Shown piece by piece: positions 1 through 10,415 of a stretch of DNA of 11,293 nucleotides. Both the position numbers and the translations under genes were made by a program. Below the pieces are notes generated by a model, which had not been told where the DNA came from, ran no database searches, and saw only the letters and a list, made by a program, of their open reading frames with translations. Origin of the DNA: an uncultured Sphingobium sp. (GTDB lineage Bacteria > Pseudomonadota > Alphaproteobacteria > Sphingomonadales > Sphingomonadaceae); the NCBI GenBank assembly GCA_913773715.1, contig CAJYHD010000053.1:1-11293 (forward strand). Direction: 5' to 3'. The first letter of the stretch is position 1. Each line of letters begins with the position of its first letter.

Positions 1-90
1 CAGTACATCAACGGATTTTATAACACCCGCCGCCGCCATTCATATCTGGGCGGCATCAGCCCGCTCGCCTTCGAAGCCAAGGTGGCTTAA
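1..90 (+). CDS. IS3-family transposase OrfB, C-terminal fragment
   Basis: The window opens inside a frame that reads QYINGFYNTRRRHSYLGG, then ISPLAFEAKVA, and stops at TAA. The pattern of YN, RRHSYLGG and SPxxFE is the hallmark C-terminus of IS3-family (rve integrase core) transposases, just after the catalytic glutamate of the DDE triad. Only about 29 residues are visible; the catalytic residues and OrfA are outside. The stop codon lies 37 bp before the inferred element end, normal spacing for this family. The protein would move the element by cut-and-circularise transposition. The subgroup cannot be assigned from so short a tail. Confidence 0.85.
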   Translation, partial: QYINGFYNTRRRHSYLGGISPLAFEAKVA

Positions 91-127
91 TGAGATAGGT
101 GACCGGCACAAATCCGTTACAAGTCCA
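1..127 (+). mobile_element. Right-hand end of an IS3-family insertion sequence (partial)
   Basis: The stretch holds the last codons of an IS3-type transposase, a short non-coding tail and the element's terminus. The terminus is placed at 127 because that base ends in CA, as IS3-family ends do (the complement begins TG), and because the reading frame of the interrupted sensor gene on the other strand stops resembling its family exactly there. The rest of the element and its other terminal repeat lie left of the window, so the repeat pair and target duplication cannot be checked here. Confidence 0.75.
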
Positions 128-504
128 TTGAGCACGGCCCGCATGGCGAAGATATGCTCGAGCGTCTCCTTCTGGAGCTGCCCCATGGCCTGGTGCGAGC
201 GATCGACCGCGGCGCCGACGGCGGGGCCATAGCCATGCTCGGACTGGATGGCGTCGGCGAGCTTCGCATTGTCCGCGCGCAGCTCGAGTTCCAGCGCCTT
301 CTTGCGAAGCGCAAACCGCCGTTCGATCTCTTCCATGCGGGCCTTCTGGCTATCGTCCAGGTCGAGATCGTGGTGAAGCAGCGCGTGCAGTTCATTCTCC
401 ACGGGTGCGGGTCGTGCGATGAAAGCGCGGCCGATGAACGCGCCGGCGATTGCTGCCAGAAAGGCGATGACGGCGATCAGGAGCAGCCGGCGCCGGTCGG
501 TCAT
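40..504 (-). CDS. CnrX-like periplasmic heavy-metal sensor, 3' end replaced by IS sequence
   Basis: The N-terminus has basic residues followed by one membrane segment (about residues 7-28), then a helical periplasmic domain of the CnrX/Metal_resist type. Candidate metal ligands are H40 and H44 (HxxxH), E61, H117 and M121 (HxxxM). Their spacing equals that of the Ni/Co site of Cupriavidus CnrX (H42, H46, E63, H119, M123). The first 125 residues or so are native. From residue 126 or 127 on, the frame is read from the IS terminus and ends at a chance stop, giving 154 residues with about 28 foreign ones. The native C-terminus (around 20-25 residues by comparison with CnrX) is lost. The ATG overlaps the upstream gene's TGA by 4 bp, which indicates co-translation. 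In the cnr system the sensor holds the anti-sigma factor and responds to metal; here it is probably damaged or inactive. Confidence 0.75.
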   Translation of the reverse strand: MTDRRRLLLIAVIAFLAAIAGAFIGRAFIARPAPVENELHALLHHDLDLDDSQKARMEEIERRFALRKKALELELRADNAKLADAIQSEHGYGPAVGAAVDRSHQAMGQLQKETLEHIFAMRAVLNGLVTDLCRSPISLSHLGFEGERADAAQI

Positions 505-791
505 TCGCCAGTCCCGATGCCAGACCCCAGCAGCGTCGATGGCGCGAGCGCGGCTGGCGCACCGAACGGAGCGATCGATGGCGCGGGTTCGGCATAGCCG
601 GGAATTGCTGCTCCCAGCAGCCCGACCACGAGCGCGAGGCTGGCGGCGATGCCGACCAGCGAACCGGACAGCGGTTGGCCATGTGTGTCCTGAGCGGCGA
701 TACCGTCGAACACGGCGGCTTCTATTCCGGCCAGCCGCGGATCGACCGGCAAGTCGTGCAGGCGCTGCAACGCCGTATCGACATCCGTCAT
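501..791 (-). CDS. Small single-pass membrane protein, CnrY-like putative anti-sigma factor
   Basis: This 96-residue protein has a soluble N-terminal half (about 1-43) with an amphipathic stretch around LQRLHDLPVDPRL, one hydrophobic segment (GSLVGIAASLALVVGLLG), and a proline/alanine-rich periplasmic tail. Size, topology and position directly before a CnrX-like sensor match CnrY (95 residues), whose cytoplasmic part binds the ECF sigma factor CnrH. The tail motif PFG followed by LLGSG recalls the end of CnrY. Sequence similarity is otherwise weak, so the role is inferred from topology and context. The chosen ATG has GGAG 8 bases upstream. A second ATG at 797 would add two residues but leaves that GGAG too close. 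It would be transcribed from the leftward promoter at 819-844. Confidence 0.6.
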   Translation of the reverse strand: MTDVDTALQRLHDLPVDPRLAGIEAAVFDGIAAQDTHGQPLSGSLVGIAASLALVVGLLGAAIPGYAEPAPSIAPFGAPAALAPSTLLGSGIGTGE

Positions 792-818
792 CGTCATCAC
801 TCCATGCCTCTCGCCAGC

Positions 819-844
819 ATACGCAGCCTGATGTCCCAACCCTC
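819..844 (-). promoter_or_regulatory. Putative ECF-sigma promoter for the cnrYX-like pair
   Basis: Read leftward, GAGGG (844-840) is separated by 16 bases from CGTAT (823-819). The same two boxes with the same spacing occur in the opposite orientation at 870-895. An ECF-type -35/-10 pair typically has about 16 bases between boxes and a CGT-containing -10. Transcription would start near 812, leaving a leader of about 15-21 nt before the start codon. Confidence 0.5.
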
Positions 845-869
845 GGCGCCATGCAGATATTTCGTCGTC

Positions 870-895
870 GAGGGATAGCAGGTCGGGCTGCGTAT
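870..895 (+). promoter_or_regulatory. Putative ECF-sigma promoter for copCD
   Basis: GAGGG (870-874), 16 bases, then CGTAT (891-895). It matches the leftward copy at 819-844 at about 19 of 26 positions, including the shared stretch GGCTGCGTAT. Transcription would start near 902, giving a leader of about 24 nt that contains the TTGGAG ribosome site of copC. No competing sigma-70 promoter is obvious in the gap. Confidence 0.5.
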
Positions 896-925: not shown

Positions 926-1309
926 ATGAACAAGACGATGATGCTCTCCGCGCTGGCTGCGCTGTCCCTTGGCGCGGCCGGTCCTGCCTTCGCGCACCCT
1001 AAGCTGGTGAGCAGCACGCCCGCCGCCGCCGCGACGGTGAGCGCACCGCGCCAGGTCACCTTGACCTTCAGCGAAACGCTGTTGCCCGCGCTGTCCGGCG
1101 CCGAAGTCGTGATGACCGGAATGCCCGGCATGAAGGATCATCCGCCGATGAAGATCAACGGCGCGAAGACGAGCGTCGCCGCCGACGGCAAGACCTTGCA
1201 GATCGCGTTCGGCCGGCCGCTTGGCGCGGGTAGTTATGCGGTCAATTGGCACGCGGTCTCTGGCGACACCCACCGCGTGACCGGCAGCGTGACCTTCACC
1301 GTCCGGTGA
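926..1309 (+). CDS. copC: Periplasmic copper-binding protein CopC
   Basis: This 127-residue exported protein has a signal peptide with cleavage after AFA, leaving His24 as the mature N-terminus. That His-first end (HPKLVSSTPA) is typical of the Cu(II) site of CopC, completed here by D114 and H116 in the motif HAVSGDTHR. A Met-rich loop (M63, M66, M69, H72, M75 around MTGMPGMKDHPPM) is a candidate Cu(I) site. The rest fits the CopC immunoglobulin-like fold. It has a clear ribosome site (GGAG about 8 bases before ATG). The stop codon overlaps the copD start (TGATG), so the two are co-translated. CopC is thought to bind periplasmic copper and pass it to CopD or hold it. The upstream ECF-type promoter suggests metal-responsive control. 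Confidence 0.93.
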   Translation: MNKTMMLSALAALSLGAAGPAFAHPKLVSSTPAAAATVSAPRQVTLTFSETLLPALSGAEVVMTGMPGMKDHPPMKINGAKTSVAADGKTLQIAFGRPLGAGSYAVNWHAVSGDTHRVTGSVTFTVR

Positions 1310-2214
1310 TGCTCGACTGGCCGTTGGTGGCCGTGCGCTGGGGGCTGTATCTCGTCCTCGGCGCGTTGTTCGGCCTGCCGGATTTCGCAATTTACGGACT
1401 GCCGCAGACGGCGAGCGCCACGGTCTTGCCGCTGCGCTTGCCTGTGATCGCGCTCTCGGTGCTCGGAATCGCGTTGAGCGTGGCCGCCATCCTGCTGATG
1501 ACGGCTGCGATGTCGGGGGTCGGCGTCATGGCGGTCGATCAAGCGACGCTGACCATGATTCTGACCCAAACCAGCATCGGATGGGCGTGGATCGCGCGCG
1601 TCATCGCTCTGTTTGCCATCCTGATGCTCGCGCTCCCGGCAAGGCGCTGGACCTACGTTTATAGCTGGTGCTCGACCTTGCTCGCTGCGGTCGCCGTCGC
1701 GAGCCTTGCCTGGACCGGGCACGGCGCTGCCGGCGAAGGCAATCTCGGCAACGCCCAACTTATCGGCGACATTATTCACCTGCTGGCGGCCTCGGCCTGG
1801 GTCGGTGCGCTTGTCGCGTTTCTCATACTGATGAGCACCGCCCGCGATTCCGAAGCGCTTGCACTCGCCCACGTGGCCTTGACGGGCTTTGCCCGCGCGG
1901 GCACGATTATCGTCGGCCTCCTCATCGCGACGGGCCTGCTCAACCTCTATATTCTCGTCGGGCCTGACCGACTGCTGGCACTTGGCGCGAGCGACTATGG
2001 CCGCGTGCTCCTTGCCAAGCTCGCCCTGTTCGGCCTGATGCTGCTACTTGCGGCCGGCCATCGCTGGCGGCTCGCACCGGCACTGGGCAACGATCCCGCC
2101 CATGCCGCTATCGCCCGCCTGCGAACGAGCCTCTGGCTGGAATTTTTGGCGGCGGTCGCGATCCTGGCGGCGGTGGCGTGGCTGGGCACGCTGCCACCGC
2201 CGGCATCGCTCTAG
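1309..2214 (+). CDS. copD: Copper resistance/transport membrane protein CopD
   Basis: This 301-residue integral membrane protein has about eight hydrophobic segments. The C-terminal part carries the CopD-family signature: H138 in TGHGAAGEG, then H157 in DIIHLLAASAWVGAL, and the pattern YGRVLLAKLALFGLML followed by AAGHRWRLAPAL. It is the partner of CopC; copCD operons take up or handle copper across the inner membrane, with CopC as periplasmic donor. The ATG at 1309 overlaps the copC stop by one base, and the N-terminus MLDWPLVAVRWGLYL begins just before the first membrane helix, as expected. The gene ends 6 bp from the stop of the convergent glutaredoxin-MauE gene, with no clear terminator hairpin between them. 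Confidence 0.9.
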   Translation: MLDWPLVAVRWGLYLVLGALFGLPDFAIYGLPQTASATVLPLRLPVIALSVLGIALSVAAILLMTAAMSGVGVMAVDQATLTMILTQTSIGWAWIARVIALFAILMLALPARRWTYVYSWCSTLLAAVAVASLAWTGHGAAGEGNLGNAQLIGDIIHLLAASAWVGALVAFLILMSTARDSEALALAHVALTGFARAGTIIVGLLIATGLLNLYILVGPDRLLALGASDYGRVLLAKLALFGLMLLLAAGHRWRLAPALGNDPAHAAIARLRTSLWLEFLAAVAILAAVAWLGTLPPPASL

Positions 2215-2220
2215 CGCGGA

Positions 2221-3000
2221 TCAGCCGGGCATGTGGCCGAGCGCGCCTACACCCATCCAGCTCAATCCCATCCAGATCGCCATCGCGACCATCATGATAT
2301 TTTCGGTCAGCGAGACGAAGCCGAGCGGCACCTTGCTCGATCCGCCGACACAGGCGCATTTGATCTCGCGCCGGTCGATATAGACCGCCTTGAACACCGA
2401 GACCGCGCCGATGCCGCCGATGACCAGCGCCACCGGGGCAGAGAGCCAGGTCAGGACGCCGGCGGTCATCAGGACGCCGGCCGCGCCTTCGGCGAAGGGA
2501 TAGACATAGGAATAGGGCACCCAGCGCCGCGCCAGCAGGTCGTAGTTGAGGAACATGGACGAGAAGCGCTCGACGTCCTGCAGCTTGAGCAGCGCCAGCA
2601 CACACATGCTGAGCGAGATGAACCATTCGGCGGCGCGGGTCGTAAACGGCGCGCCATAGACCGACTGGCTGACGGCGAGCGCCATCAGCGCGGTCATCGC
2701 GAACACCGCGATCACCGGCGTGTAGCTGGTCGCGTCGGGATCGGGCACCGACTTGCCGAAGAAGCGGCGCAGATCGTCATAACCGCCGATCCGTCGGCCA
2801 TCGATGAAGGTCTGCGGCGTGGTCTTCACCTCATGCTCGGCCTTGAACGCATCGGTTTCGGCGCGGGTCTTGAGCCAGCGGTCGTCGACCGCATAGCCCT
2901 GGGTCTCGAGCAGATGCTTGGCCTTCAGGCCATAGGGGCAGACATGCTCGGCCATCACCATGCGATAGAGCGTCGCGCGCTTGGAAGGTTGGTCGGTCAT
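2221..3000 (-). CDS. Glutaredoxin-MauE/DoxX fusion, redox-associated membrane protein
   Basis: This 259-residue protein has two parts. Residues 10-82 are a glutaredoxin-like domain: C21 in HVCPYGLKAK, cis-proline region TTPQTFID and the GGYDDL glutathione-binding turn. The CPYG motif has one cysteine, so it is a monothiol type. Residues 92-255 are a four-helix MauE-type membrane domain, carrying C215 and C217 in CACVGGSSKVPLGFVSLTEN. MauE-like proteins act in thiol-disulfide handling, so electrons may pass between cytoplasmic glutathione and the membrane cysteines; the actual partner is unknown. The ATG has AGGA 7 bases upstream. It is transcribed leftward from a mer-like promoter (3040-3071) and divergent from merR, which makes it the apparent main target of that regulator. 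Confidence 0.8.
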   Translation of the reverse strand: MTDQPSKRATLYRMVMAEHVCPYGLKAKHLLETQGYAVDDRWLKTRAETDAFKAEHEVKTTPQTFIDGRRIGGYDDLRRFFGKSVPDPDATSYTPVIAVFAMTALMALAVSQSVYGAPFTTRAAEWFISLSMCVLALLKLQDVERFSSMFLNYDLLARRWVPYSYVYPFAEGAAGVLMTAGVLTWLSAPVALVIGGIGAVSVFKAVYIDRREIKCACVGGSSKVPLGFVSLTENIMMVAMAIWMGLSWMGVGALGHMPG

Positions 3001-3039
3001 TGCGGGTCCTCATCGCCTTGCGATTGATCGGTCCCGACC

Positions 3040-3071
3040 CATATAGGTGCCGTACCATAGTACGGAGTCAA
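3040..3071 (-). promoter_or_regulatory. mer-type promoter/operator between the glutaredoxin-MauE gene and merR
   Basis: Read leftward: -35 TTGACT (3071-3066), a perfect dyad CCGTAC-TATG-GTACGG (3065-3050), and -10 TATATG (3045-3040). The spacer is 20 bases (19 if CTATAT is taken as -10). A stretched 19-20 base spacer with the dyad inside it is the diagnostic layout of promoters activated by MerR-family proteins. The -35 plus dyad arms agree with the Tn501 merT operator as I remember it, differing only in the 4-base centre. Confidence 0.85.
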
Positions 3072-3074
3072 GGC

Positions 3075-3491
3075 ATGGAAATGCTGACGATCGGCAAGCT
3101 CGCCGCGACGGGCGGGGTCGGGGTCGAAACCGTTCGCTATTACCAGCGGCGTGGGCTGCTGGCAGAGCCGCCGCGCGACGACGGCATCCGGCGCTATGGC
3201 GACGACGATGTGCGGCGCCTGCGGTTCATTCGCTCCGCGCAGGCGGCAGGGTTCACGCTGGAGGAAATCGGAGAATTGCTGAGCCTGGACGCAGTGCAGG
3301 ACCGCACCCGGGCGCATGCACTCGCCGAAGCTCGAATCGTGGCGATCGACGCCAGGATCGCCGAATTACAGTCTGCGCGGGCTTCGCTTGCGCGTCTCGC
3401 CAGTGAATGTGCTGGAAATACCTCTGTTGCATGCCCGATCATCTCGGCATTCGAGGCCCAGCGCGATCGAGCATCTGTCGCCGCTGTGTGA
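3075..3491 (+). CDS. MerR-family transcriptional regulator, mercury-type with a missing cysteine
   Basis: This 138-residue protein has an N-terminal winged helix with the family pattern LTIGKLAATGGVGVETVRYY and QRRGLL, then RRYGDDDVRRLRFIRSAQAAGF, a long dimerisation helix, and a C-terminal metal loop. It aligns along its whole length with Tn501 MerR. Of the three Hg ligands (C82, C117, C126), the last two correspond to C112 and C120 in ECAGNTSVACPII, with the loop one residue shorter, but the C82 position is Arg77. It may therefore sense another thiophilic metal or a thiol signal. The start at 3075 has GGAG 8 bases upstream; an in-frame ATG at 3081 is also possible. It is divergent from the glutaredoxin-MauE gene and should repress or activate it, and itself, from the shared operator. 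Confidence 0.88.
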   Translation: MEMLTIGKLAATGGVGVETVRYYQRRGLLAEPPRDDGIRRYGDDDVRRLRFIRSAQAAGFTLEEIGELLSLDAVQDRTRAHALAEARIVAIDARIAELQSARASLARLASECAGNTSVACPIISAFEAQRDRASVAAV

Positions 3492-5479: not shown

Positions 5480-6265
5480 TCAGGCGAACGCGCCGGCACT
5501 TTTCCAAAGCATGTACGCCGCGACCGCGAAGATCAGCACGGCGAACACGGTCGTTAGCGCGCCTCGGCTTTCCGACAGCCGCCGCGCGGCAACCATCCCG
5601 AGCAGACCGCCAACGATGCCGCCGGCAATGAATACGCCCGCAAGCGGCCAGTCGACGAGTCCTGAGAAAGCATAGTTGAGTGCCGTCGTCAGTCCGAACG
5701 CAGCGACCGCGACCAGCGAGGTGCCGACTGCATTCAGCATCGGCATCCGCGTCGAGCCGATCAGCCCCGGCACGATCAGGAACCCGCCGCCGATGCCGAA
5801 AAAGCCAGAGAACAGGCCAGTCGCAAGCCCAAATCCCAGCACCTTGGGCGCATTTTCGCGGTTGCACTGGGCGCCGGGAATGCCCTGCGCCTTGCGGCCG
5901 CGGATCATCGCGATGCCGACCACCACCATGACCAGCGCGAACAGGAACAGCAGCCTGCCGCCGTCGAAGGCCTTGCCCGCGGTCGAGCCGGCCAGCGCCC
6001 CCACGATCCCTGCGGCAGCGTACATGCCCCCACAGCGCCATTTGACGGTGCCGGCCCGCGCATGCCCAATCAGCCCGGTCGCAGCATTGGCGGCCACCGC
6101 GAATGCACTGGTGCCGATCGCCATGTGTGCGCTCGGCACGCCGACAAGATAGACCATGAGCGGCACGGCGAGGATCGAGCCGCCACCGCCAACCAGCCCG
6201 AGCGTAAACCCGACCAATGCTCCCGACAGGCCGCCGAGCACATACTGGATCGGCTCGAGCATCAT
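5480..6265 (-). CDS. TauE/SafE (TSUP) family sulfite/anion exporter
   Basis: This 261-residue membrane protein has about eight helices in two repeated halves. Each half opens with the TSUP glycine signature: FTLGLVGGGGSILAVPLM near the N-terminus, and GFFGIGGGFLIVPGL near residue 160. Family members export sulfite or sulfoacetate, or move thiosulfate and related anions. As last gene of a sulfide-oxidation operon, export of the sulfite product of the persulfide dioxygenase is the likeliest job (inference). Its ATG overlaps the TGA of the upstream SQR fusion by 4 bp (ATGA). A second ATG follows immediately, so the start may be one codon later. BigR-controlled operons in other proteobacteria also include a TauE-like gene. 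Confidence 0.88.
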   Translation of the reverse strand: MMLEPIQYVLGGLSGALVGFTLGLVGGGGSILAVPLMVYLVGVPSAHMAIGTSAFAVAANAATGLIGHARAGTVKWRCGGMYAAAGIVGALAGSTAGKAFDGGRLLFLFALVMVVVGIAMIRGRKAQGIPGAQCNRENAPKVLGFGLATGLFSGFFGIGGGFLIVPGLIGSTRMPMLNAVGTSLVAVAAFGLTTALNYAFSGLVDWPLAGVFIAGGIVGGLLGMVAARRLSESRGALTTVFAVLIFAVAAYMLWKSAGAFA

Positions 6266-7920
6266 GAAGCGCTGATCCGGTGGGGTTTGGCCATCAGCTC
6301 ATGGCCCTTGAGCATCGCGTTCCAGTAGAGCGGCGGCAGCATCCGCTCCTTGAGGAACCAGGCGGCCTTGGTGGGCTTCGTCCCGTCGATCAGCCAGGCT
6401 GGGAAGCTCGGCAGCAGCTTGCCGCCATAGCCGAACTCGGCGAGCACGATCTTGCCGCGCTCGACCGTAAGTGGGCACGAGCCATAGCCGTCATAGTCGG
6501 CGACCGGAGGCTTGCCGTCGAGCGCAGCCAGCACGTTGACCGCCACGACCGGCGCCTGCTTTCTTGCTGCCGCCGCCGTCTTTGCATTGCTGGTGCCAGC
6601 GCCGTCGCCCAGGCCGAAAACATTTTCGTACCGCTTGTGGCGCAGGGTCGCTTCGTCGACCTCGATGAAGCCGCTCGCAGCTGCAAGCGGGCTCTTGGCA
6701 ACCATGTCGAGCGACACCTGTGGCGGCACCGCGTGCAACATGTCGAACTCGCGCTCGATCCGCGTCGCTCCGCCGTCTTTCTTGTGCTCGAACGTCGCGA
6801 TACGGCGCTCGCCATCGACTGCCACGAGGTTGGATTCGAGCTGCAGATCGATGCCGTACTTCTCAATATATTGCATGAGTGCCGGGACATAGGTCGCGAC
6901 CCCGAACAGGACGGCGCCGGCATTGTGGAACTCGACGTCGATCTGCGGGAGCGTCCCAGCGTCGCGCCAGATGTCGCAGGACAGGTACATCGCCTTTTGC
7001 GGGGCACCTGCGCATTTGATCGGCATCGCTGGCTGCGAGAACAGTGCCCGCCCGGTTTTCAACTGCTTGACCAGCTGATGCGTGTAGGGCGCCAGATCGA
7101 AGCGATAGTTGGAAGTGACGCCGTTCTTGCCCAGCGCCCCTTCCAGCCCGTCGATCTGCTCCCAGGCAAGCCGCAGGCCTGGTGCCGCAACGAGGACGCG
7201 GTAGGTGAGCGTCCGGCCATCGGCCAGCTCGACCGCATTGCGATCGGGATCGAAGCCGCTGGCCGGAACCTTTAACCACTCGACGCCGGAGGGCATGACA
7301 TCGGCCTCCGCCTTGCGCGTCTGTTCCGGCGTGAAGACGCCCGCGCCGACCATGGTCCAGCCCGGCTGATAATAGTGATCTGTAGCGGGATCGACGATCG
7401 CGATCGTCACTTTGGAATTGCGCTTGAGAATGCTGGAGGCGGTTGCAATGCCGGCGGCACCGCCACCGACGATGACGACGTCATAGGTCATTGACTGGGC
7501 CATTCTGCGGCGCTGGAGTTGCGGTTCGAGGGCGGCAATGTCGTAGTCTGCCGCGGCGGCCTGCTGCACGAGACTGGCAGAATCGGATGTATCGGCGTTC
7601 GCGAGCGCCCAGAGGGTCGTCGAGCGTGCACCGCTGCGACAATAAGCGAGAATAGGCTGGGGGAGTGTCGCGAGCGCGTGCGCCATCGCATCGGCGTCCG
7701 CATCGCCAGCCTTCCCGGACTCGATCGGAATATGGGCGAAGGCCATGCCGTGACGCTCAGCTTCGGCCTGCATTGCGGCTGCCTTGGGTTGGTCGGCTTC
7801 CTCGCCGTCGGGACGGTTGGAAATGATCGCGCGGAATCCCTTTTGCGCCGCGCGGGCGACATCGCCGAGGCTGAGCTGCGGCGACACCGAAAGGCTGTCA
7901 TCCAGTCGTTTGAACGCCAT
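6262..7920 (-). CDS. DUF442 sulfurtransferase fused to sulfide:quinone oxidoreductase
   Basis: This is a 552-residue two-domain protein. Residues 1-135 are a DUF442/TIGR01244-type domain (SVSPQLSLGD, IISNRPDGEE) with the loop CRSGAR at C94-R99. That six-residue C-x4-R loop is rhodanese-like rather than the CX5R loop of tyrosine phosphatases. Residues 144-552 are a FAD-dependent SQR: GGGAAG nucleotide-binding turn (152-157), first redox cysteine C303 in IKCAGAPQKAMYLS, FAD motif GLGDGAGTSNAKTAAAARKQ (436-454), and second redox cysteine C482 in YDGYGSCPLTV. Both cysteine motifs closely match human SQOR, so this is the mitochondrial-like SQR type. It should oxidise H2S to sulfane sulfur, pass electrons to quinone, and let its own sulfurtransferase domain relay the sulfur. 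The start has AAGGAG at good spacing and overlaps the upstream PmpB-like gene by 23 bp. Confidence 0.92.
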   Translation of the reverse strand: MAFKRLDDSLSVSPQLSLGDVARAAQKGFRAIISNRPDGEEADQPKAAAMQAEAERHGMAFAHIPIESGKAGDADADAMAHALATLPQPILAYCRSGARSTTLWALANADTSDSASLVQQAAAADYDIAALEPQLQRRRMAQSMTYDVVIVGGGAAGIATASSILKRNSKVTIAIVDPATDHYYQPGWTMVGAGVFTPEQTRKAEADVMPSGVEWLKVPASGFDPDRNAVELADGRTLTYRVLVAAPGLRLAWEQIDGLEGALGKNGVTSNYRFDLAPYTHQLVKQLKTGRALFSQPAMPIKCAGAPQKAMYLSCDIWRDAGTLPQIDVEFHNAGAVLFGVATYVPALMQYIEKYGIDLQLESNLVAVDGERRIATFEHKKDGGATRIEREFDMLHAVPPQVSLDMVAKSPLAAASGFIEVDEATLRHKRYENVFGLGDGAGTSNAKTAAAARKQAPVVAVNVLAALDGKPPVADYDGYGSCPLTVERGKIVLAEFGYGGKLLPSFPAWLIDGTKPTKAAWFLKERMLPPLYWNAMLKGHELMAKPHRISAS

Positions 7921-8359
7921 GTCGCTCTCCTTTGTTGATGGGCCGGGCTGCCGGCAGCAGACGGAAAAGACCGAAGCCGGCCGCCATGCCGATGCAGGAA
8001 ATGAGCGCCGGAATGGGCGCAACCGCCAGCGCCGCGACAGCGGGTCCGGGGCATAGGCCGGCAAGGCCCCAGCCAATCCCGAACACTGCAGCGCCGACGA
8101 TCAGCCGTCTGTCGATCGGCTTCGTCGCGGGCAGGTCATAGTCGGCTGCGAAGACCGGGTGCTGACGATGCCGAACGATTGCCCAGGCCATGACCATCGG
8201 GATCAGCGCACCGCCCATCACGAAGGCGAGGGTCGGATCCCAGGCACCACCGATATCGAGGAAGGCGCGGACGCGGGCAGGGTCGACCATGCCAGACACC
8301 GCGAGGCCGGCGCCGAACAGCGTGCCGCTCGTGAGCGAGACGATCACCTGCCGGATCAC
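7898..8359 (-). CDS. YeeE/YedE-like membrane protein, second half (PmpB-like, DUF6691)
   Basis: This 153-residue protein has about four hydrophobic segments and the motif GIGWGLAGLCPGPAVAAL (C103), the conserved cysteine loop of the smaller YeeE/YedE partner. Family members (PmpA/PmpB, TsuA) take up sulfur compounds such as thiosulfate through cysteine-lined channels. The start is GTG at 8359 (VIRQVIVSLTSGTLFGAGLAV); it overlaps the stop of the PmpA-like gene by 4 bp (GTGA). Any upstream extension in this frame reads as arginine-rich shadow of the neighbouring gene. The C-terminus overlaps the SQR fusion start by 23 bp and carries its ribosome site, which suggests tight translational coupling. 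The two half-proteins probably form one transporter. Confidence 0.85.
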   Translation of the reverse strand: MIRQVIVSLTSGTLFGAGLAVSGMVDPARVRAFLDIGGAWDPTLAFVMGGALIPMVMAWAIVRHRQHPVFAADYDLPATKPIDRRLIVGAAVFGIGWGLAGLCPGPAVAALAVAPIPALISCIGMAAGFGLFRLLPAARPINKGERHGVQTTG

Positions 8360-8793
8360 AGGCCAGCCCCAGTGACCCGAAGGATGGTTACGGTCGCGAT
8401 GCCGGACGCCATGAACACAGCGGTCGCAGCCAATGAACGCGGCGAAAGCCGAGCCATGCCGACCACGCCGTGACCACTGGTGCAGCCTGAGCCGAGCCGC
8501 GTTCCGAACCCCACGATGACGCCGGCAATCGCCAGCAGCGCAGGCGATGCGGGAACGTGCGCCTCGATCGCCATTGTCGCGCCGACAAGCGAAGCACCAA
8601 GCGGCAAACCAAGCGTGAATGCGAGTGCAATTGCGCGTGGCGCACCGGATGCGGCGAGGCCGGCTGCCCGGGCGAACAGACCGCTGCAACCCGCCACGCG
8701 GCCATTAGCCAGCAGCATCAGCGCCGCGGCACACCCGATCATGAGGCCACCGATCAGTCCGTGGAGCGGGATCGCCTGCGGAAAGCCCGGCAT
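8356..8793 (-). CDS. YeeE/YedE family sulfur transporter, first half (PmpA-like)
   Basis: This 145-residue membrane protein has about four hydrophobic helices. The key motifs are GRVAGCSGLF (C36) and GFGTRLGSGCTSGHGVVGMARLS (C104, read from 96). The second is the signature of the YeeE/YedE family, whose cysteines contact the sulfur substrate in the thiosulfate transporter structure. The gene sits in a sulfide operon directly before its smaller partner, so transport of a reduced sulfur species is the inferred role; direction and substrate are not shown by sequence. ATG at 8793 overlaps the dioxygenase stop by one base (TGATG); a GTG one codon earlier is possible. Confidence 0.87.
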   Translation of the reverse strand: MPGFPQAIPLHGLIGGLMIGCAAALMLLANGRVAGCSGLFARAAGLAASGAPRAIALAFTLGLPLGASLVGATMAIEAHVPASPALLAIAGVIVGFGTRLGSGCTSGHGVVGMARLSPRSLAATAVFMASGIATVTILRVTGAGL

Positions 8794-9713
8794 CACAGCA
8801 CGTCCAGCGGGATCTTCAGATAGCGGGTACCGTTCGGCTCGGGCTCGGGCAGATGACCGCCACGCATATTGACCTGGATCGACGGGAAGATGAGCTTGGG
8901 CATGGAAAGCGTCGCGTCGCGTTTCGTGCGCATCGACACGAAATCGTCCTCGTCGACCCCTTCATGGACGTGAACATTGCCGGTGCGCTGGGCGCCGACC
9001 GTGGTTTCCCAGACATATGTGTCGCGACCGGCAGCTTTGTAATCGTGACAGAGGAACAGCCGGGCTTCGGGCGGCAGCTTCAGCAATCGGCGAATAGACC
9101 GGAACAGCTCGCGCGCATCGCCACCGGGGAAGTCGGCACGGGCGGTGCCATAGTCCGGCATGAACAGCGTATCGCCAGTGAACACAGCATCGCCGATGAC
9201 ATAGGCAAGATCTGCCGGCGTATGTCCGGGTACATGTAATGCTACCGCTTCGATTCCGCCGATCGTGAACCGGTCGCCGTCATCAAAGAGGTGATCGAAC
9301 TCGGAGCCGTCGCGCTCGAACTCGGTGCCGGCGTTGAAGATTTTGCCGAACACATTCCGCACCCGGATGATCTCGCGCCCAATGGCGAGCTTCCCGCCGA
9401 GAGCCTTCTGGAGATAGGACGCGGCCGACAGGTGATCGGCGTGGGCATGCGTCTCCAGTAGCCAGTCGATCGTCAGGCCTTCGGCACGAACAAAAGCGAT
9501 GATCGCATCAGCCGACGCGGTGTCTGTGCGACCGGCGGCCGAGTCGAAGTCGAGGACGCTATCGATGATCGCCGCGCGCCCGGTTGCGGGATCCCACACC
9601 ACATAGGTCGCGGTGTTGGTCGGCTCGTCGAAGAACGAGCGGATTTCGGCCTTGGTGCCGGTCCGGAGCGAAGCGCGGACCAGCTCGGCGGCGTGGTGAA
9701 GCGCTGAATCCAT
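8793..9713 (-). CDS. ETHE1/Blh-type MBL-fold persulfide dioxygenase
   Basis: This 306-residue metallo-beta-lactamase-fold protein has the motif THAHADH (H89, H91, D93, H94), VPGHTP (H164), TGDTLF (D181) and LCHDY (H223). The pattern matches persulfide dioxygenases (ETHE1, Blh), where two histidines and one aspartate bind a single iron. The reaction oxidises glutathione persulfide to sulfite and glutathione. The C-terminal extension (VHVHEGVDEDDFVSMRTKRD and onward) is typical of the Blh group. Unlike Blh of Xylella and Agrobacterium, it has no N-terminal DUF442 domain; that domain sits on SQR here. It is the first gene of the leftward operon. ATG at 9713 has AAAGGA 8 bases upstream; the preceding GTG at 9716 is an alternative. 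Confidence 0.9.
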   Translation of the reverse strand: MDSALHHAAELVRASLRTGTKAEIRSFFDEPTNTATYVVWDPATGRAAIIDSVLDFDSAAGRTDTASADAIIAFVRAEGLTIDWLLETHAHADHLSAASYLQKALGGKLAIGREIIRVRNVFGKIFNAGTEFERDGSEFDHLFDDGDRFTIGGIEAVALHVPGHTPADLAYVIGDAVFTGDTLFMPDYGTARADFPGGDARELFRSIRRLLKLPPEARLFLCHDYKAAGRDTYVWETTVGAQRTGNVHVHEGVDEDDFVSMRTKRDATLSMPKLIFPSIQVNMRGGHLPEPEPNGTRYLKIPLDVL

Positions 9714-9735
9714 CACGCAAATCCTTTATCGATTT

Positions 9736-9762
9736 CATTGTTTATGTAATTCATAAATCATG
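9736..9762. promoter_or_regulatory. AT-rich operator dyad between sulfide operon and prx-arsR
   Basis: The core is TTTATG-TAATT-CATAAA (9741-9757), a perfect 6-bp inverted repeat about position 9749. The symmetry extends outward to CAT (9736-9738) and ATG (9760-9762). It is a conspicuous AT-rich island in GC-rich DNA and lies between two divergent units, one of which encodes an ArsR-family repressor. It overlaps the predicted -10 of the leftward promoter, so bound repressor would block RNA polymerase. Binding by this ArsR is an inference. Confidence 0.7.
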
Positions 9763-9771
9763 TTGCGTCAA
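9743..9771 (-). promoter_or_regulatory. Putative sigma-70 promoter of the sulfide operon
   Basis: Leftward -35 TTGACG (9771-9766), 17-base spacer, -10 TACATA (9748-9743). The -35 is good and the -10 is weak (3 of 6 to consensus), so the -10 could be shifted by a base or two. Transcription would start near 9736, with AAAGGA (9727-9722) as ribosome site for the dioxygenase. Confidence 0.45.
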
Positions 9772-9797
9772 CGCGCTGGCGCTGGCATTGGATCCCG

Positions 9798-10415
9798 ATG
9801 CAGGATGAGCTTTCCCCACGACCGCTGCGGATCGGCGATCAGGCGCCGAACTTCACGGCGCGCACCACGCAGGGCGAGAAAAGCCTCGAAAGCTATCGCG
9901 GGCGCTGGCTGATCTTCTTTTCGCATCCGGCGGATTTCACGCCGGTGTGCACCAGCGAATTCATCGCCCTCGCCAAGGCGGCCGACCAGTTCGAGCAGCT
10001 CGACTGCGCTCTGTTGGGCCTGTCGGTCGACAGCCTCTACGCGCACATCGCCTGGCTGCGCGCGATCGAGGAAGCGTTTGGCGTCACCGTGCCGTTCCCG
10101 GTCGTCGAGGATCCGTCGATGGCCGTCGGTCGGGCCTATGGGATGCTCGATCCCGATGCTGCCGACGCATCGACGGTGCGCGCCACCTATTTCATCGATC
10201 CCGATGGCGTGATCCGCGCGATGAATTGGTATCCGATGACCATCGGTCGTTCGATCACCGAGATGCTGCGTACGCTTGCAGCGCTGAAGCGCTCGACCGA
10301 GAAGGGCGTCCTGACGCCAGCAGATTGGCATCCAGGCGACGACATCCTGCTCCCGCCCGACCTGCAGCCGTCCAAGGACAAGTCATGGTTCCACCGTTCG
10401 GGACCGGACACATGA
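9798..10415 (+). CDS. 1-Cys (Prx6-type) peroxiredoxin
   Basis: This 205-residue AhpC/TSA-family protein has a peroxidatic cysteine at C51 in FFSHPADFTPVCTSE, with Thr48 of the PxxxTxxC motif, and a Prx6-like C-terminal domain (ATYFIDPDGVIRAMNWYPMTIGRS). The only other cysteine is C70, not at a usual resolving position, so a 1-Cys mechanism using an external thiol is likely. It reduces peroxides and possibly persulfides. It is slightly shorter than mammalian Prx6 (about 224). Its stop overlaps the arsR start by 4 bp (ATGA), so the repressor of the sulfide operon is probably made together with it. The ribosome site is weak (TTGGA about 7 bases upstream), and the AT-rich operator dyad lies 36 bp upstream. 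Confidence 0.9.
   Translation: MQDELSPRPLRIGDQAPNFTARTTQGEKSLESYRGRWLIFFSHPADFTPVCTSEFIALAKAADQFEQLDCALLGLSVDSLYAHIAWLRAIEEAFGVTVPFPVVEDPSMAVGRAYGMLDPDAADASTVRATYFIDPDGVIRAMNWYPMTIGRSITEMLRTLAALKRSTEKGVLTPADWHPGDDILLPPDLQPSKDKSWFHRSGPDT

Follow-up and report, generated by a model that had tools for sequence, protein, structure and literature searches.

The window, a stretch of 11,293 nucleotides from an uncultured Sphingobium sp., contains two divergently oriented gene sets separated by a 128-bp gap (Table 1). The rightward set starts with the copper resistance genes copC and copD. The leftward set is composed of a gene for a small membrane protein, Y, and a gene for a periplasmic metal sensor, X, which lacks its 3' end. 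Y has 98 residues when translated from position 797 and 96 residues from position 791. The initial annotation described the two leftward products as an anti-sigma pair. Of the two, X carries a Metal_resist domain of the CnrX kind. Y of the window has no significant family match and no PDB match, and is proposed as the anti-sigma factor by its size and position.

Table 1. Coordinates of the genes, predicted promoters and insertion sequence around the copC/Y gap
Feature	Position	Strand	Basis
Insertion sequence end, interrupting X	1..127		Similarity to Sphingobium replicons, with alignments that end at 121-128
X, CnrX-type periplasmic metal sensor without 3' end	128..504	-	Metal_resist PF13801
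Y, small membrane protein, proposed anti-sigma factor	501..797	-	CnrY-like position and size; start 797 or 791
P_Y, predicted promoter towards the Y-X operon	819..844	-	Exact motif; -35 GAGGG 844-840, -10 CGTAT 823-819; predicted start ~811
Gap separating both -35 boxes, 25 bp	845..869		Sequence
P_C, predicted promoter towards copC	870..895	+	Exact motif; -35 GAGGG 870-874, -10 CGTAT 891-895; predicted start ~903
copC	926..1309	+	NCBIfam NF033814, over curated cut-off
copD	1309..2214	+	NCBIfam NF033808, over curated cut-off

X is interrupted by an insertion sequence. The junction was placed at 127/128 by comparison with pSES220, a plasmid of Sphingobium yanoikuyae SHJ. The transposase tail is readable to about base 90, and close copies of the element are present on Sphingobium replicons. 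The reading frame of X continues into the insertion sequence as far as base 40, and 29 residues encoded by the element stand in place of roughly 21 at the C-terminus of the 146-residue protein. No sigma factor gene was found in the window: the best tblastn matches have E values of 0.89 (pSES220 sigma factor as query) and 0.15 (CnrH), and both are short. The left edge of the window falls within the insertion sequence, and the sigma gene may thus lie behind it.

Downstream of copCD, at 2221-3491, a glutaredoxin-MauE fusion gene is divergent from a gene for a MerR-family regulator, an arrangement also present after copCD on pSES220. Further to the right, 5480-10415 is occupied by a sulfur-detoxification-like cluster encoding a TauE/SafE exporter, a BLH-phosphatase/oxidoreductase fusion, a Sulf_transp protein, a metallo-beta-lactamase-fold hydrolase and a peroxiredoxin.

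The divergent gap contains the pattern GAGGG-N16-CGTAT twice, once in each orientation, as the initial annotation had proposed. Both copies are exact matches, with the sequence GAGGGTTGGGACATCAGGCTGCGTAT on the minus strand and GAGGGATAGCAGGTCGGGCTGCGTAT on the plus strand. The likeness of the two copies was also correctly noted, the shared bases numbering 20 of 26 rather than about 19. The pattern is expected 0.03 times by chance in the window, and two copies occurred in none of 200 dinucleotide shuffles, a comparison that is post hoc because the motif was taken from the same DNA. In a motif-free test, the top identity between inverted 26-mers in the gap was 20/26, which none of 60 mononucleotide shuffles equalled (maximum 16).

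Each predicted -10 box is suitably spaced from its gene, in line with the initial annotation. The end of the -10 box lies 30 nt from the copC start at 926 in P_C, and 21 or 27 nt from Y in P_Y, depending on whether the ATG at 797 or at 791 is chosen. The predicted transcription starts were placed 8 nt past CGTAT, a rule taken from the cnr promoters. Two further features of the gap were considered and discarded. An UP element common to both promoters was sought between the -35 boxes, where the A+T content is 53%, compared with 35% in coding sequence, yet bases 1-12 past the -10 box also average about 48%. Helical phasing of P_Y relative to P_C, calculated over related loci for a 10.5-bp period, gave an R of about 0.3.

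An intact relative of the locus is present on pSES220 (locus L121), which is 85.7% identical to the window over 128-2263. Its gene order is copB-copA-sigma-X-Y, the gap, and copC-copD-glutaredoxin-MerR. The plasmid keeps both P_Y and P_C boxes, while the spacer sequences differ from those of the window. A third box, with one mismatch, is located ahead of copA, overlapping the end of the sigma gene. When mismatch is allowed, the pSES220 scan yields 3 matches against 1.38 expected, and the third box is weak by itself without comparison across loci. The sigma factor of pSES220 has 187 residues, ends after region 4, and contains one cysteine and no C-terminal extension. Sphingobium sp. SYK-6 (NC_015974) is another strain in which the sigma gene and copC occur together.

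The proteins of pSES220 resemble those of the CnrYXH system, encoded on pMOL28 of Cupriavidus metallidurans. The best PDB match of the sigma factor (P0001) is CnrH, with an E value of 1.4e-30 and 41% identity, and the next match follows at 3.7e-19. The X protein shares 36% identity with CnrX (E 9e-20), and its seven PDB matches are all CnrX or NccX entries. Residues H42, H46, E63 and H119 are found in every one of the 132 sensors, and M123 in 127 of them; all five, which are the metal ligands of CnrX, are present in the window copy. In addition, all 132 close sensors have His106 and Met109 (CnrX numbering) where CnrX has Glu and Ala. The two residues possibly provide extra metal contacts in X. 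They were rejected as marks of copper specificity, since the His is shared by all eight distant sensors and the Met by seven of the eight. Y is not recognisably related to CnrY: in a set of three sequences, CnrY scores 8.4 bits against a profile built from 131 Y proteins, and the BLAST E value is 1.8, while size and position agree.

The promoters are also alike. On pMOL28, cnrYp reads AAGGG-N17-CGTAT and cnrCp reads GAGGG-N17-CGTAT. According to the available text of PMC9045368, primer extension located the starts of both promoters at 24 and 25 nt ahead of their genes, and by these distances the mapped starts fall 8 nt after CGTAT. The same text reports an RpoD promoter for cnrY, so the twin box may not be the only promoter of Y here either.

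The two systems thus have in common the order Y-X-sigma, seen on pSES220 and pMOL28 (the window itself contains Y and the cut X only), and promoters with a -10 box of CGTAT and a -35 box of (A/G)AGGG in front of both Y and the resistance operon. They differ in their targets, which are predicted to be copCD and copAB in sphingomonads and are the cnrCBA efflux pump and cnrT in the cnr system. The sphingomonad system additionally possesses a divergent promoter pair, and its spacer is 16 instead of 17. Because copCD and copAB take the place of a nickel/cobalt RND efflux operon, the sphingomonad locus would not be the nickel system itself; it would be a branch that works alike.

Conservation of the boxes was examined starting from the sigma gene. 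A total of 131 places with a close sigma homolog were listed at E <= 2e-43; one at a contig edge was omitted, and the gap was readable in 129 of the remaining 130. A box was called when it had at most one mismatch to GAGGG-N16-CGTAT. A box towards Y is present in 124 of 129 loci and is exact in 78. A divergent copC is present in 94 loci. P_C is found in 88 of these (exact in 67), and P_Y and P_C occur together in 88 of the 94, both exact in 44. The 35 loci without divergent copC have a divergent box in 12 cases. copA follows the sigma gene in 103 of 130 loci, and a box, P_A, precedes it in 98 of the 103. At this threshold, P_Y was not found in L190, L198, L223, L235 and L237, and P_C was not found in L198, L205, L223, L237, L244 and L273.

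Control patterns are rarely found in the same regions. The reversed motif matches 1 of 129 gaps towards Y, 0 of 94 towards copC and 1 of 130 before copA, and the true motif occurs within the X and sigma genes in two loci. The complement of the motif gave one match, five letter shuffles gave 0 to 2 each, and spacers of 14, 15, 17 and 18 towards Y gave 12, 2, 3 and 0. The highest control, with 18 matches, was the motif with swapped halves; these represent 11 distinct words, eight of them near-identical and from related loci, and an intact GAGGG is present in 2 of the 18. The 315 sites comprise 284 distinct sequences, and the locus counts are not independent since the loci are related. The consensus is (T/C)GAGGG-N14-(T/C)GCGTA(T/A), in which the T/C before GAGGG and the (T/C)G before CGTAT are conserved although they were not selected for.

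The opposite search, starting from the box pair alone (ATACG-N16-CCCTC-N5-35-GAGGG-N16-CGTAT), covered 397 Sphingomonadaceae genomes. The divergent pair was found in 42 genomes at 45 places, and the backward-read pattern in none of the 397. Thirty of the 45 places were fetched: a homolog of the pSES220 sigma factor adjoins the pair in 30 of 30, X in 29 and CopC on the opposite side in 22. A sigma match at E <= 1e-18 is present in 179 of the 397 genomes, some of which hold more than one sigma copy. All 42 pair-bearing genomes belong to these 179 and none to the other 218 (hypergeometric 1.5e-16, ignoring kinship). A class-level search of 289 genomes returned the pair in two: G092, which the family set also contains, and G462 (L285), where sigma and X adjoin it. 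Conservation in orthologous gaps, the check proposed together with the initial annotation, is therefore strong from both directions. A lone box was rejected as a diagnostic, as a single-pattern scan of genome contigs returned at least 120 stretches from many unrelated phyla. Two distant CnrH-like sphingomonad loci (L124:1501-1564 and L133:1501-1564) carry the same twin boxes with non-copper genes opposite, encoding a DUF2231 protein and a cytochrome c, respectively; they perhaps represent a branch for another signal.

Boxes also occur away from sigma loci. A hand-picked subset of 40 copC genes not adjoining a close sigma locus was inspected, with one region cut to 225 bases. Of the 14 copC genes from genomes with a sigma match elsewhere, 4 are preceded by a box. 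In three of these four (G140, G047 and G254), copC with its box lies on another contig, and the sigma locus has P_Y and no copC opposite. Of the 26 copC regions from genomes lacking a sigma match, three have the box, one of them exact; X was not found in these three cases, and their boxes are unaccounted for by the model. An exact box stands upstream of copC at L338; the genome concerned, G041, has no sigma match at 1e-18, and X was not found in it.

In a search of 16 genomes for regulon members, GAGGG-N15-GCGTAT gave 76 matches versus 15 for the reversed control. A spacer-17 register was abandoned, with 11 sites versus 18 control matches. Eight sites outside sigma loci were inspected for the neighbouring gene. 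A DUF411 gene lies behind two of them (L310 and L322), both at a distance of about 7-9 kb from a sigma locus. The site at L325 precedes a gene for a second copper oxidase and that at L307 one for a TonB receptor; the other four (L299, L304, L308 and L312) have no clear copper link. At several sigma loci without copC opposite, the divergent gene encodes a P-type ATPase with a YHS domain, and that of L192 is closest to copper pumps.

The boxes are conserved with exact spacing and orientation, they co-occur with the sigma gene, and they share their -10 box with the mapped CnrH promoters. The mirror-image boxes are very probably promoters of one CnrH-like ECF sigma factor that drives both the Y-X(-sigma) operon and copCD, as predicted from these sequence patterns. 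The proposal of the initial annotation that a single ECF sigma factor serves its own regulators and copper resistance gains support from the conservation of the boxes beside a CnrH-like sigma gene. Its description of the locus as a copper version of a cnr-type system fits the family, since the sigma factor is 41% identical to CnrH and the promoters have the same -10 box and nearly the same -35 box; copper as the signal is suggested by the target genes.

The symmetry of the gap might instead be that of an operator bound by a copper regulator of the two-component or MerR type. Two inverted copies in one divergent gap resemble an operator, and a MerR gene is located at 3078-3491. Yet the distance between the -35 boxes varies from 4 to 86 bp (median 24 bp) among 83 distinct relatives, while each copy keeps a near-constant distance to the gene it faces (median 27 nt for Y and 31 nt for copC). 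The internal spacing is fixed at 16, a single copy stands before copA, and both the -10 and the -35 boxes agree with mapped sigma-dependent promoters. We consider an operator highly improbable.

A CnrH-like sigma factor might also use these same promoters in response to another metal, such as nickel, cobalt or zinc, or to envelope stress, with the copper genes as mere passengers. The nickel/cobalt ligands of CnrX are unchanged in X, and the distant copies with the same boxes face DUF2231 (L124) and cytochrome c (L133) genes. In the close branch, by contrast, the boxes precede copC and copD, copA in nearly all loci where it is present (98 of 103), copper-type P-type ATPases, a DUF411 gene and a second copper oxidase gene, and a signal other than copper appears unlikely. 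A different doubt concerns the window copy, which could be a relic whose boxes fell silent when X was cut and the sigma gene was lost. The insertion sequence within X and the lack of a sigma gene in the window point in this direction. On the other hand, both boxes are intact, the sigma gene may sit behind the insertion sequence, and several genomes have more than one sigma copy. Decay of the window pair is a less likely outcome than function, though one to be reckoned with. As the sigma gene is missing from the window, activity of the pair would depend on a sigma factor encoded past the insertion sequence or by another copy of the gene.

Under the preferred reading, in which one CnrH-like sigma factor recognizes the boxes, Y would keep that factor bound at the membrane. 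On detecting metal in the periplasm, X would cause Y to release the sigma factor, which would then bring RNA polymerase to (T/C)GAGGG-N14-(T/C)GCGTA(T/A) before Y, copC and copA; some genomes would have further target copper genes at other sites. Activation of Y-X-sigma by the sigma factor would constitute feedback, with copCD and copAB driven alongside. The binding by the sigma factor, the anti-sigma action of Y and metal sensing by X are inferred by homology.

Several ECF sigma factors have been linked to copper: CorE (PMC10141476), and SigAb, CorE-like and CarQ-like factors (PMC12153292), as named in the available parts of these papers. CorE of Myxococcus xanthus is likewise connected to copper homeostasis and, within it, to a multicopper oxidase gene, but is described in the accessible text of PMC10141476 as controlled by its own Cys-rich C-terminal extension, whereas the sphingomonad sigma factor sits with X and Y. 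The 187-residue sigma factor of pSES220 has neither the Cys-rich C-terminal extension nor the CxC motif of the CorE type. SigAb-AabA-AabB of Acinetobacter baumannii resembles the proposed sphingomonad system in that an ECF sigma factor stimulated by copper is paired with small anti-sigma proteins, one of which, AabA, binds in the model in a manner close to that of CnrY on CnrH. In contrast, the genes of its anti-sigma proteins are located downstream of that for the sigma factor, metal resistance belongs to the indirect regulon, and a CnrX-type sensor is not mentioned, so far as the available portion of PMC12153292 goes.

No description of a CnrH-type copper system was found in the literature on sphingomonads, copper, ECF factors and CnrH, as judged by titles and abstract openings and with few subscription papers included. 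Two sphingomonad papers mention copper or a heavy-metal sensor, and their accessible passages describe no such CnrH-type system. The CnrYXH type is already known, and a copper branch of it would be new as far as these papers go.

CnrYXH is the model of metal sensing by an ECF system and responds to nickel and cobalt. As the copper branch keeps the same five ligands, discrimination between copper and nickel by one CnrX fold becomes directly testable. The promoter is readable from the DNA, and members of the regulon can thus be listed by pattern. A relative of the sigma factor is present at E <= 1e-15 in 78 plasmid records, 40 of which are predicted to be conjugative; some are from outside the sphingomonads, for example from Cupriavidus. 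It is reasonably probable that, on Sphingomonadaceae chromosomes and conjugative plasmids, a CnrH-type sigma factor under a CnrX-type sensor runs copper resistance through a three-promoter cassette (Y, copC and copA), which would add to CorE, CarQ-like factors and SigAb as another mode of ECF-based copper sensing. On plasmids, such a cassette would bring its own sigma factor and promoters, and hence its own promoter specificity, into each new host.
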